Source: Sulfurovum sp. TSL1 (GTDB lineage: Bacteria > Campylobacterota > Campylobacteria > Campylobacterales > Sulfurovaceae). From it: DNA of 64,000 nucleotides. Below, piece by piece: positions 28,989-33,099 of this stretch; positions within the stretch are counted from its first letter, which is position 1, and every line of letters starts with the position of its first letter. The notes under the pieces were generated by a model. It was given only the letters and a program-made list of their open reading frames with translations, had not been told where the DNA came from and did not search any database. The DNA lies in the NCBI RefSeq assembly GCF_019972135.1, contig NZ_BPFI01000001.1, positions 479,106 through 543,105 of the forward strand. Direction: 5' to 3'. The position numbers and the translations under genes were made by a program.

Positions 28989-29903
28989 ATGAACGATTCA
29001 CCTAATTTCCTACACTCTATTCTTAACACGCTTACAACGAATATAGCTGTTATTGATAAACTGGGTTATATTCAATATGTCAATCTAAGCTGGGAGAAAT
29101 TTTCCCAACACAATGATCATATACTCAATAGTAGTTGGGACAATATCAATTATTTGGAAACTTGCGATAAAGCTGCATTAATGGGTGATGAATTAGCGAA
29201 ACAAGCAGCAGATGGTATCAGAAAAGTGATCAATAATGAACAAGAATTGTTCTACCTTGAATACCCCTGTCATAGTCCCAATGAGGCAAGGTGGTTCATG
29301 ATGAGAGTTACGAAATTTCAATTGGAAGAGAAGACCTATTTCGTATTATCGCATTATAATATTACAGAGAGAAAACTTGCTGAAGAAAAAGTATTAAAGC
29401 TATCTCAAATTGATGGGCTTACCAACATAGCGAATCGTAGACATTTTGAAAATTTTCTTAATGATGAATGGAATCGGTGTCTACGTTTAAATATGCCTAT
29501 AACGCTTGCAATCATTGATATCGATAACTTCAAGACATTGAATGATACATACGGGCATCAAACTGGAGATGACTGCCTAAAGAGAATTGCTGCTATACTT
29601 AAGAACTTTGCTAAAAGACCAAGTGATGTTTGTGCAAGATATGGTGGAGATGAATTTGTCCTGTTATGGGGTAATACAGGTTATGAGACATCCAAAGTGA
29701 TAGTAGACAAACTATTTAATGCTATACATGAGCTAAAAATACCGAACATAAATGCTCCAAGTATACCAATTATGACTTCAAGCATTGGAGTGTCAACACT
29801 GTATCCTGACAAAAAGACAACTAAAGAAGACCTAATTAAAGCTGCAGATATTCTACTTTATAGAGCAAAAGAACTTGGTAGAAATCAAGTTTGCTATAAA
29901 TAA
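28989..29903 (+). CDS. PAS-GGDEF diguanylate cyclase
   Basis: 304-aa soluble protein. An N-terminal PAS domain (about residues 8-125, opening LTTNIAVIDKLGYIQYVNLS) leads into a GGDEF domain with substrate region DIDNFKTLNDTYGHQTGDDC and active motif RYGGDEFVLLW. It should make c-di-GMP from GTP in response to a ligand or redox change sensed by PAS. No membrane helix is present. It converges on two reverse-strand genes also built on GGDEF/EAL folds. Confidence 0.93.
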   Translation: MNDSPNFLHSILNTLTTNIAVIDKLGYIQYVNLSWEKFSQHNDHILNSSWDNINYLETCDKAALMGDELAKQAADGIRKVINNEQELFYLEYPCHSPNEARWFMMRVTKFQLEEKTYFVLSHYNITERKLAEEKVLKLSQIDGLTNIANRRHFENFLNDEWNRCLRLNMPITLAIIDIDNFKTLNDTYGHQTGDDCLKRIAAILKNFAKRPSDVCARYGGDEFVLLWGNTGYETSKVIVDKLFNAIHELKIPNINAPSIPIMTSSIGVSTLYPDKKTTKEDLIKAADILLYRAKELGRNQVCYK

Positions 29904-29982: not shown

Positions 29983-30756
29983 CTACATTTTATTATGAAA
30001 AAGTTTTTCATCCAGTTGATCTAATACGGATGAAAAAGATTCATTTTTGATGTATTGTATCTCAGCGGCATTAAATGTCAGGCTAAATACCCTGTTACGG
30101 TGTTTGAAGCTATAGTTTGACATCTCATGTTGCATATTGCTGATATGTTCCTCTACTTCGTTTTCATTCATGTCATGCATAAAAATGAGAAAGTTGTCTT
30201 TCAAATAACGAACGATCTCATAATGACAATGTTTCTGATCCAGATAACCGATCATATAATCACTTACCTGTTTTATGAGTGTATTACCTATATTTGAATC
30301 ATACTCTCTAACGATCTTGTCATAATCTACGATCTTGATACTTATCAAAAATCCATAATCCTTAAATGTTTCATTCTTATTGAGTTTATCTTTAAATATC
30401 CATAATCGATTTTTGGTCTCCGAAATATCATCTGAAAAAAGTTGTGTACGCAGAGTATCCACAGCAGATCTAAGGACATTCAGCTCCCTCACATAGTCTC
30501 TGCCTGAATCAAACCAATACTGCTCCATTTTTTTAAGCGATTGCATAGTGTTCATGATCTCATCTTCATCCGCAGAAACTCTATGAAGACTTTCTTCTTT
30601 ATGTTGATTGTCGATTTTTTCCATCTCTTCAGTAAAGATCTCTAGATACTTAGAAGGCATGACGATCTCATTCTTTAACGCTCTAAGCATAGCTTTTTCC
30701 GTTATGTGTACCAGTTTTTCATTATCGTTATACAATGTTATCTCCTTTCGAGCCAA
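29983..30756 (-). CDS. Degenerate GGDEF-domain protein
   Basis: 257-aa soluble protein. A helical N-terminal half rich in Glu/Lys precedes a cyclase-like C-terminal half (LISIKIVDYDKIVREYDSNI...VRYLKDNFLIFMHD). The position of GGDEF is occupied by YLKDNF, so no cyclase activity is expected. Its start overlaps the end of the upstream EAL-domain gene by 29 bp, suggesting an operon and a physical or regulatory partnership. It may act as a c-di-GMP or partner-binding adaptor. Confidence 0.65.
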   Translation of the reverse strand: MARKEITLYNDNEKLVHITEKAMLRALKNEIVMPSKYLEIFTEEMEKIDNQHKEESLHRVSADEDEIMNTMQSLKKMEQYWFDSGRDYVRELNVLRSAVDTLRTQLFSDDISETKNRLWIFKDKLNKNETFKDYGFLISIKIVDYDKIVREYDSNIGNTLIKQVSDYMIGYLDQKHCHYEIVRYLKDNFLIFMHDMNENEVEEHISNMQHEMSNYSFKHRNRVFSLTFNAAEIQYIKNESFSSVLDQLDEKLFHNKM

Positions 30757-32287
30757 ATGTCGCTGTTACATTGTCCCAATGTTCCGGCTTATGCAAATGA
30801 TACCCTTGCAGATAATCTACACCGATACTTTTTGCCAGTCTCATAATATGCGCATCACTGATATATTCAGCAATGGTTTTGATCCCGAGATCATGACAGA
30901 TCTTCACCATATTCTCCAGGATGATCCTGTATTTTATATCATCGATCTTCGATACCAGTGAACCATCCAGTTTGACACAATCGATATCAAGATGCACGAT
31001 ATTGTCAAAATTGGAGAATCCACTGCCGAAATCATCTATAGCGATAAGTACCCCCTGTTTTTTCAGTGCAAAGATAAATTCATTGACCTGTTCAATATCT
31101 TCGATCTGCTCACTCTCTACGATTTCAACCGTTAAACGCTCTCCTATATTTCTCTGTTTGATCTGTTGTATCAAGGTGTTACAAAGTTCAGAGTTGTTGA
31201 TATCCAGATAAGAGAGGTTCAGGGTCATGGCAACCTCACAGTGATCCATGACATCAAACACTTTTTCTATCATTTGGGACATCAGCTGTGTATATAAACG
31301 GTATTCCTTTGATTTGTCCATAAATACTGCCGGTGATAAGACATGCCCGTCATCGTCCATCAATCTCATAAGACTTTCAAATTTACAGGGAACACTATTA
31401 TTATCAGCATCAAAGATACCCTGAAAATATGGGGTGACCGTCTCTTGTTTGATATTATGAAGCAGTGTCTCATAGACCTTATTAACGATATGTTCATTCT
31501 TCTGGATCGAATAACTGTCATAAAAGACATAATTCTTGCGTGATCTTTTTGCTTCCTGCAATGCTTTTTCCGCATAAAGCAAACTGACAGAACTGTCTGC
31601 TTTTGTGGCACCAAAGGTCGTATTGAGATGAATATGGCTATCCTCAGATACAAAGAACTTATGGTTTGCGATGCTATCAGAGAGTTGTTTCACCACAAAT
31701 TCAAGCAGGCGATGATGTAAACCATGTTTGATGAATAAACAGAGTTTGTCTGCATAGACATGATAGAGTTCATAGGAAAACACTTCCAAACCCTGTTTTT
31801 TAAATACACCTGTGGTCTCCATCTCTTTCAGGGTATTTTCTATCAGCGTTTGCATCTCATTCACCATACGTGTACCGGTTTCATAGCCATAGAGGATATT
31901 GATATCATCAAATGCAACGATGTCGATCAGTGAAACGATAGCAATATCATTGTACGAAGAGATCATTTTCTGGTGATCCTGCATGGTTCTACCTGATGAT
32001 ATAACAGAAAATGGCCTCTTTGTGTTCTCATCGGCCAATATTTTTTTATCCGGTTGAGGAAGAGTCGCACCCATATTCGTTCCTTTTTTATCTAAGTCAA
32101 CTTGATGTTTGATCTCCATCAGTTTAAGTAAGGCTTCATCTCTTGTCTGAGCATCTACTCTTTTTTTGATCGGTTTGCCGTCAGCATCTCTGTAGGTAAC
32201 GTAGTAACCTGTGACCTTGCCATCAGATTTACGATAGAGTTCACTGACACCTTTATAGTGCTTGTCAGTGATAGTTCTGATTGGCAT
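30728..32287 (-). CDS. EAL-domain protein with integrase-like N-terminal DNA-binding domain
   Basis: 519-aa protein with an unusual layout. Residues about 5-65 (KHYKGVSELYRKSDG, GYYVTYRDADGKPIKKRV, then a helix with EALLKLMEIKHQV) look like the arm-type, three-strand-plus-helix DNA-binding domain of tyrosine recombinases. No recombinase catalytic domain follows. Residues about 95-260 form a GGDEF-like domain whose active motif is lost (VYADKLCLFI). Residues about 265-510 are an EAL domain with FESLMRL in place of EALxR, but LNLSYLD, VEIVESE, IDDFGSGFSN, KLDGSLV and QGYHLHKP are kept. A c-di-GMP phosphodiesterase or sensor able to bind DNA is inferred. Confidence 0.8.
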   Translation of the reverse strand: MPIRTITDKHYKGVSELYRKSDGKVTGYYVTYRDADGKPIKKRVDAQTRDEALLKLMEIKHQVDLDKKGTNMGATLPQPDKKILADENTKRPFSVISSGRTMQDHQKMISSYNDIAIVSLIDIVAFDDINILYGYETGTRMVNEMQTLIENTLKEMETTGVFKKQGLEVFSYELYHVYADKLCLFIKHGLHHRLLEFVVKQLSDSIANHKFFVSEDSHIHLNTTFGATKADSSVSLLYAEKALQEAKRSRKNYVFYDSYSIQKNEHIVNKVYETLLHNIKQETVTPYFQGIFDADNNSVPCKFESLMRLMDDDGHVLSPAVFMDKSKEYRLYTQLMSQMIEKVFDVMDHCEVAMTLNLSYLDINNSELCNTLIQQIKQRNIGERLTVEIVESEQIEDIEQVNEFIFALKKQGVLIAIDDFGSGFSNFDNIVHLDIDCVKLDGSLVSKIDDIKYRIILENMVKICHDLGIKTIAEYISDAHIMRLAKSIGVDYLQGYHLHKPEHWDNVTATFGSKGDNIV

Positions 32288-32372
32288 TTTTTCCTCCGAT
32301 CTCCATTAAACTTTTTTTCTTAAAGATATTTTCAAACTGAAAATATCTAAACCATATTTTACTATTGTAGTC

Positions 32373-32411
32373 AAAAGTTACTACATATGTCAAGTTAATG
32401 TAGTAACTTTT
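32373..32411. repeat. 14-bp inverted repeat upstream of the EAL/DNA-binding gene
   Basis: AAAAGTTACTACAT (32373-32386) and ATGTAGTAACTTTT (32398-32411) are perfect inverted copies separated by 11 bases. They lie about 85 bp upstream of the start codon at 32287, just before a possible -10 box (TAAAAT on the reverse strand near 32358). An operator for the gene's own DNA-binding domain is a natural reading. Confidence 0.65.
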
Positions 32412-32495
32412 AAATATAACCAAATAAACATGCTATAAAAGGCGATAGAGGGAACCAAATAGCATATTATATATTTATTAATATAGCATGACTCT

Positions 32496-32508
32496 AAAAG
32501 TTACTACA
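32496..32508 (+). repeat. Third copy of the AAAAGTTACTACA site
   Basis: AAAAGTTACTACA repeats the left arm of the inverted repeat at 32373 exactly, about 110 bp farther upstream. The stretch between is AT-rich and has no gene. Confidence 0.6.
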
Positions 32509-32641
32509 ATTTCATTCCTACTTTATATTAATAAATATTTATCATGGGATCACGAGAAAGAAAAACGATTTTCATTCTTCCCTACTCCATTAGGATGGTT
32601 TCTGTTATACTTATAAAAGACTAGTTAAAACAAGGTATCCA

Positions 32642-33099
32642 ATGGGCAGTGAAATAACCCACCACCCCCCCCCGTCAATCAACTTGGCATAGACAAAGCC
32701 GTCGCCCTGATAGATGATCTGATGCATATGGACCATTTCCCCGAGAAAGCCCTTCCCTCCCATGACCTGCAACTGGTACAGAACAGTGCAGTCCTGAAAA
32801 TAGCTGAAGGTGTGCACTTCGGGTTTGAGGATGAGGAAGAACGTTTTGATCTCACGCTGGTAGAGAACTTTGACCGTCACAATTTCACGCAACTTAAGAT
32901 CTCAGAAGTCTTTGCCCATACTACCCTGGAGAGACCTCTCATCGCCACAGCGGAAGATGGTACGGATCTAACGGATGAGTTGATATCCAATCAAAACGGT
33001 GCGATCTCTCTCAAAAAACCTCTCATGCCGGCAATGATCACCCTGGACAAAAAGATCATTATGCAAGATTGTCTCTGTTATCTCTTGGAAGACTATTAA
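32642..33099 (+). pseudogene. Hypothetical gene interrupted at a poly-C tract (phase-variable or frameshifted)
   Basis: AAGG precedes an ATG at 32642 that reads MGSEITHHPPP and then meets a stop soon after a run of nine C (32665-32673). With one C more the frame joins the long downstream frame, which is open to 33099 and includes VNQLGIDKAVALIDDLMHMD. That would give a protein of about 151 aa. The joined sequence is acidic and soluble with no family I recognise. The frame change occurs exactly at the homopolymer, so slipped-strand phase variation (as in Campylobacter contingency genes) or a length error in the sequence are the two explanations. An internal ATG at 32722 could still give a 125-aa product. 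Confidence 0.55.
32665..32673 (+). repeat. Poly-C tract (nine C) inside a coding region
   Basis: Nine consecutive C near the 5' end of the hypothetical gene. Homopolymer C/G runs of this length are rare in AT-rich genomes and prone to slippage. Confidence 0.8.

Follow-up and report, generated by a model that had tools for sequence, protein, structure and literature searches.

What would an enzyme of c-di-GMP metabolism do with the DNA-binding part of an integrase? The question is raised by a gene, of a type carried by certain sulphur-oxidising bacteria, in a 64,000-nucleotide stretch of the Sulfurovum sp. TSL1 genome (hereafter the window), which encodes an EAL-domain protein with a recombinase-like N-terminus and lies downstream of a 14-bp inverted repeat. 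The initial annotation described the gene, the repeat and a third copy of its half-site; all are where it placed them and the repeat is perfect (Table 1). The putative promoter inside the palindrome and the second gene of the operon go beyond that description.

Table 1. Features at and around the EAL-fusion operon, by position in the window
Feature	Position	Strand	Remarks
PAS-GGDEF protein	28989-29903	+	Intact GGDEF domain; convergent with the operon
Operon gene 2, degenerate GGDEF protein	29983-30735	-	Probable TTG start
EAL-fusion gene	30728-32287	-	ATG start; 519 aa
Arm-type domain (predicted DNA-binding), residues 1-67	32087-32287	-	Profile matches to tyrosine recombinase N-termini; AF2
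Hairpin in predicted leader RNA	32325-32347	-	GATATTTTC-AGTTT-GAAAATATC
Predicted -10 box, TACAAT	32364-32369	-	18 bp from the -35 box; second half-site inside the spacer
Predicted -35 box, TTGACA	32388-32393	-	Between both half-sites; same position in orthologues
Operator, perfect 14-bp inverted repeat	32373-32411		Half-site TGTAGTAAC, at 32411-32399 and 32385-32373 in gene-strand order; + strand reads AAAAGTTACTACAT-N11-ATGTAGTAACTTTT; conserved at all orthologous loci read
Second perfect inverted repeat, ATATTTATTAATAT...	32471-32485 and 32524-32538		Flanks the third half-site
Third, distal half-site, AAAAGTTACTACA	32496-32508	+	
Succinylglutamate desuccinylase/aspartoacylase-like gene, C-terminal fragment	32653-33096	+	~340 aa in relatives
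Nine-C run	32665-32673	+	At the 5' edge of the fragment

The EAL-Fusion Protein and Its Operon

The protein consists of the arm domain, a disordered linker (residues 68-101), a degenerate GGDEF domain (~110-255) and an EAL domain (~268-512). The full-length AF2 model is of moderate confidence (pLDDT 70.5) and served for domain boundaries only. Pfam matches EAL at residues 274-501 (E = 2e-51) and GGDEF at residues 112-252, the latter below the cut-off. An intact GG(D/E)EF is absent from the protein; with YADKL at the motif position the GGDEF domain is degenerate, as the initial annotation had it. The same annotation called the EAL domain largely complete. The domain is present, but "largely" can be dropped: 13 orthologues share E304, N357, E388, D418, D419, K439, E474 and Q494 without exception. 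These eight residues were assigned by alignment to solved EAL domains and from general knowledge of the family, and we take them to be those expected for metal binding and hydrolysis. Judged by its residues, the EAL domain is catalytically complete, and phosphodiesterase activity is predicted. The Pfam scan found no match to Phage_integrase in the 519-aa protein, nor does it have the recombinase catalytic pattern R...HxxR...H...Y. The orthologue of genome G027 (L009) contains one in-frame TAG at about codon 165; close relatives have intact copies.

Which genes accompany the fusion? Between the EAL gene's stop and the probable start of operon gene 2 there is an overlap of 8 nt, and at all ten relative loci compared the EAL gene is followed by a homologue of gene 2. 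The product of the convergent PAS-GGDEF gene is a possible source of the c-di-GMP that the EAL enzyme would degrade. Beyond the operator lies the desuccinylase/aspartoacylase-like fragment, whose G106 counterpart is matched by the Pfam family AstE_AspA_cat. Between this gene and the operon, G106, G003 and G012 carry a gene of ~475 aa that is missing from the window. Its absence, together with the reduction of the AstE/AspA-like gene to a fragment, makes a deletion in the window likely. The nine-C run is possibly a phase-variable tract or the joint of a deletion.

The N-Terminal Domain and Its Integrase Relatives

Where does the N-terminal domain come from? A profile built from the fusion N-termini matches, besides the fusions, open reading frames mostly of 370-420 aa. 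The non-fusion matches that were scanned are tyrosine recombinases by Pfam, and the complete ones among them score between E = 1.8e-15 and 7.6e-4 per genome. Over the arm domain, the L062 integrase and the fusion are 44% identical. At the level of sequence, the fusion N-terminus is thus homologous to the arm-type domain of integrases, which bears out the earlier claim of an arm-like N-terminus. One weak N-terminal match in the window genome (L006, E = 0.05) is a trypsin-like protease and was rejected as a chance match.

The predicted fold is consistent with this homology. An AF2 model of the N-terminus (pLDDT 92) has a beta-beta-beta-alpha arrangement, with strands at residues 14-18, 25-33 and 39-44 and a helix at 49-71. 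The arm domain of Tn916 integrase (1bb8) stands second in a re-ranked list of structures; the match is weak (Z 3.6, 2.8 A over 51 residues). A Foldseek search of the PDB with the arm-domain model gave no significant match, and neither did sequence searches of PDB, Pfam and PHROGs with the N-terminus alone. The Pfam Arm models do not match the N-terminus; the same models barely match the related integrases. No viral contig yielded a relative of the L069 integrase. A single group (91/84) contains the fusions in the 32-domain tree; it clusters with the integrases L062 and L101 (98/89), a placement that is tentative because both integrases have long branches.

Do these integrases share more with the fusion than a domain? 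Exact tandem repeats, spaced 11-13 bp apart, lie upstream of integrase genes that share the arm domain. Such repeats are present in 22 of 50 nonredundant integrase upstream regions (0.455 expected from shuffles, with a maximum of 4) and in none of 50 coding controls; the remaining regions, more than half of the 50 (L100/L149, for example), have no exact tandem repeat and are included in the total. Given where they lie and how arm domains act, the repeats are probably arm-type sites.

Several of the repeats are TGTAGTAAC or TGTAGTAAA, the very word of the operator half-site. The repeat reads TGTAGTAAAAA at L085, L088, L096, L097 and L106 (in two copies at L085, L088, L097 and L106), TGTGGTAAAAA at L091, TGTATTAAAA at L095 and TGTGGAAA(C) at L063, L147 and L148, while a further integrase clade has GGGTAGCAA or GGTTACTAA. 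At L101, an integrase of the same genus, the repeat is GTAGTAACA (also given as TGTAGTAACATACAGTAGTAACA), and the upstream region reads TTTTGTAGTAACATACAGTAGTAACAAAGGAG, in which the fusion half-site is contained exactly. At L147 and L148, also of the same genus, an inverted copy lies 21 bp from a direct copy, and the stretch that separates the two contains TATAAT or TACAAT. These repeats before related integrases are the strongest evidence for the reading proposed below, and are independent of the fusion loci. They support the earlier inference that a recombinase domain has been reused.

The wider catalogue of repeats upstream of Campylobacterota integrases covers L085, L088, L091, L095, L097, L101, L106, L108-L117, L147 and L148. 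In this catalogue the repeat words follow the arm-domain clades.

The Operator and Its Predicted Promoter

The promoter predicted for the EAL-fusion operon is threaded through the palindrome. On the gene strand, the first half-site is followed after 5 nt by TTGACA, then after 2 nt by the second half-site, after a further 3 nt by TACAAT, and after 76 nt by the ATG. The half-site centres are 21 bp apart in the window. Dinucleotide shuffles of the window give an expectation of 0.03 such inverted repeats, and zero copies of the 13-mer.

Is this layout conserved? The repeats were found upstream of the gene at every orthologous locus read, as the initial annotation would lead one to expect. The order half-site, TTGACA, half-site, -10 holds at 16 of 16 loci of the EAL-fusion architecture, from at least two families. 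Those within the genus are the window, G003, G106, G116, G027, G012, G010 (two copies), G059, G007 and G014; those outside it are G340, G361, G265 and G442, which belong to another family, and L078, a Campylobacteraceae MAG. The four loci of the other family keep this order, although the protein there has 57-58% identity, its flanking DNA differs and changes have entered the second half-site. The -10 box reads TA(C/T)AAT or TAGCAT at most orthologous loci. Across the loci, the half-site centres are 21-23 bp apart; this amounts to two helical turns, the distance that a dimer contacting a single DNA face would be expected to need.

Within the genus, 10 of 78 genomes carry the fusion gene; extra profile matches in G003, G055 and G101 are integrases and were left out of this count. 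The palindrome with a 13-15 bp spacer is present in all ten genomes with the gene and in none of the 68 without it. Fisher's test gives 8e-13 for this association, a value that ignores shared ancestry: the orthologues descend from a common ancestor, so that 10/10 against 0/68 is not made up of independent events. Palindromes in G043 and G112 have spacers of 8 and 9 bp with no TTGACA between the half-sites, and were taken as unrelated.

Two further elements were noted near the operator. A+T words similar to the second inverted repeat of Table 1 also occur upstream in G003 and G106. The leader sequence that contains the predicted hairpin is kept in orthologues; the predicted folds differ.

Extent of the Regulon

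Does the protein have targets other than its own operon? The 2.35-Mb genome holds four copies of the 13-mer, three at the locus and one inside an unrelated coding sequence (C1:1012858). Away from the locus, neither the palindrome (up to three mismatches) nor the exact 11-mer half-site is enriched in this genome over reversed-pattern controls. G000, G003, G106, G116 and G027 each have three copies of the 11-mer AAGTTACTACA at the locus; elsewhere in these genomes there are 0-2, which does not exceed the reversed control. A wider regulon was therefore rejected for the window genome. Since it has no other close copy of the operator, the protein is predicted to act on its own operon.

The exception is G010, a MAG in which a second promoter, that of an adjoining carboxypeptidase-regulatory-like lipoprotein gene, has the same operator and TTGACA. 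A further palindrome in G010 precedes a small lipoprotein-like gene with a weak 3D-domain match; this palindrome and the second operator are covered by L049:1276-1305 and 1088-1116. These two lipoprotein-like genes are possible extra targets. The homologue of the carboxypeptidase-regulatory-like gene in the window genome lies elsewhere, and the exact operator is absent there.

Proposed Mechanism and Alternatives

How would the domain, the operator and the enzyme act together? The gene probably encodes an autoregulatory, c-di-GMP-responsive DNA-binding phosphodiesterase that resembles PdeL and has an integrase-derived domain and operator. Physical binding, dimerisation, repression over activation and control by c-di-GMP are what we infer for it, as follows. 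The N-terminal domain, descended from a recombinase arm domain of the tyrosine type, would bind the word TGTAGTAAC, and the EAL part, which is probably dimeric, would set two arm domains on the inverted half-sites, ~21-23 bp apart. Because the half-sites bracket the -35 box and one of them lies between -35 and -10, the bound protein should keep RNA polymerase off the promoter and the operon repressed. Binding or hydrolysis of c-di-GMP by the EAL domain would alter the dimer and thereby tune repression, and synthesis of the phosphodiesterase would thus be coupled to the c-di-GMP level. Such a protein would combine the self-repression of integrases with c-di-GMP control of the PdeL type, the arm domain having been kept with its site and joined to an EAL enzyme.

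Might the same protein and operator instead activate their own promoter? A DNA-binding EAL protein need not repress, as is clear from PdeL, which at low c-di-GMP activates its own gene through a palindrome that lies upstream (PMC5052742). Activation could proceed from the distal half-sites, which are found in the window and at most orthologous loci, while the promoter-proximal palindrome would set a ceiling or itself be the activation site. However, the best-conserved half-sites flank the -35 box and fill the -35/-10 spacer, the classic position of a repressor, and the -35 box is the consensus TTGACA, which usually has no need of an activator. The position of the sites thus favours repression, and activation appears unlikely.

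It is more doubtful still that another regulator, for example one of MarR or TetR type or the gene 2 product, binds the palindrome and that the arm domain is employed otherwise. Half-site centres 21-23 bp apart over a -35 box would suit many repressors, but in the genus a palindrome in such a layout occurs only with the EAL-fusion gene, and in the window genome it has no other close copy. A different regulator would also leave unexplained why the half-site word is that of the tandem repeats of homologous integrases. The last alternative, that N-terminus and repeats are non-working relics of a decayed integrase and attachment site beside an EAL enzyme that alone functions, recalls that arm-type repeats normally adjoin integrase genes and that the G027 copy is interrupted, but it is very improbable given an arm domain with 39 of 73 columns invariant in eight sequences, an operator retained over two families despite diverged flanks, and the absence of tRNA genes near the operon.

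Origin and Comparison with Known Systems

How might the autoregulatory phosphodiesterase have arisen? We moderately favour the view that a transcription factor was formed by capture of an integrase domain together with its cognate arm-type site, so that the self-repression of an integrase was inherited and is now under a second messenger. If this is true, a route can be traced from mobile-element recombinases to signal-controlled promoters. Such a capture would also show, in unusually well-preserved form, a mobile-element domain turned transcription factor, since the related integrases survive with their repeats and allow a base-by-base comparison. From this comparison, arm-type sites can also be predicted for many integrases of Campylobacterota. 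Few EAL proteins bind DNA, and this one, if the reading holds, would provide c-di-GMP control with a new module for reading DNA. In the mainly open-access journal literature covered, no EAL protein was found described whose DNA-binding domain is of integrase origin.

The closest parallel in mechanism is PdeL (YahA) of E. coli, an EAL enzyme whose binding to its own promoter region is controlled by c-di-GMP; in a review, it is the one DNA-binding member of the two trigger phosphodiesterases described (PMC5052742). The mechanism proposed here would be a variant of the trigger phosphodiesterase. Both proteins have a DNA-binding N-terminus (predicted in the present case), a complete EAL domain and a palindrome in their own promoter region. 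PdeL, however, uses a LuxR-type helix-turn-helix, activates itself and has its site relatively far upstream, whereas the EAL-fusion protein has an integrase arm-type domain, a GGDEF-like domain and a site that straddles the -35 box.

Self-repression is known from integrase genes with a promoter overlapped by the attachment region, such as KplE1 intS and that of phage P4 (PMC2951348). There too, arm-type sites overlap the promoter of the gene, but these genes encode recombinases and their sites function in recombination, whereas the gene described here encodes a c-di-GMP enzyme without a recombinase domain. As regards the arm domains of tyrosine recombinases, such as that of Tn916 integrase (1bb8, 1b69), and the AP2-like fold, the protein has sequence homology to N-termini of Campylobacterota integrases, a predicted three-stranded sheet plus helix, and a half-site that is the short DNA word of the integrase repeats. 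In contrast to tyrosine recombinases, it lacks a core-binding or catalytic domain, and its half-sites are palindromic over a promoter.

The AP2 transcription factors of plants and apicomplexans are related in fold to integrase and endonuclease domains. They likewise place a DNA-binding domain of mobile-element type in a transcription factor. The EAL-fusion protein differs from them in being bacterial, in being fused to a second-messenger enzyme, and in that the word of its ancestral site can still be recognised.
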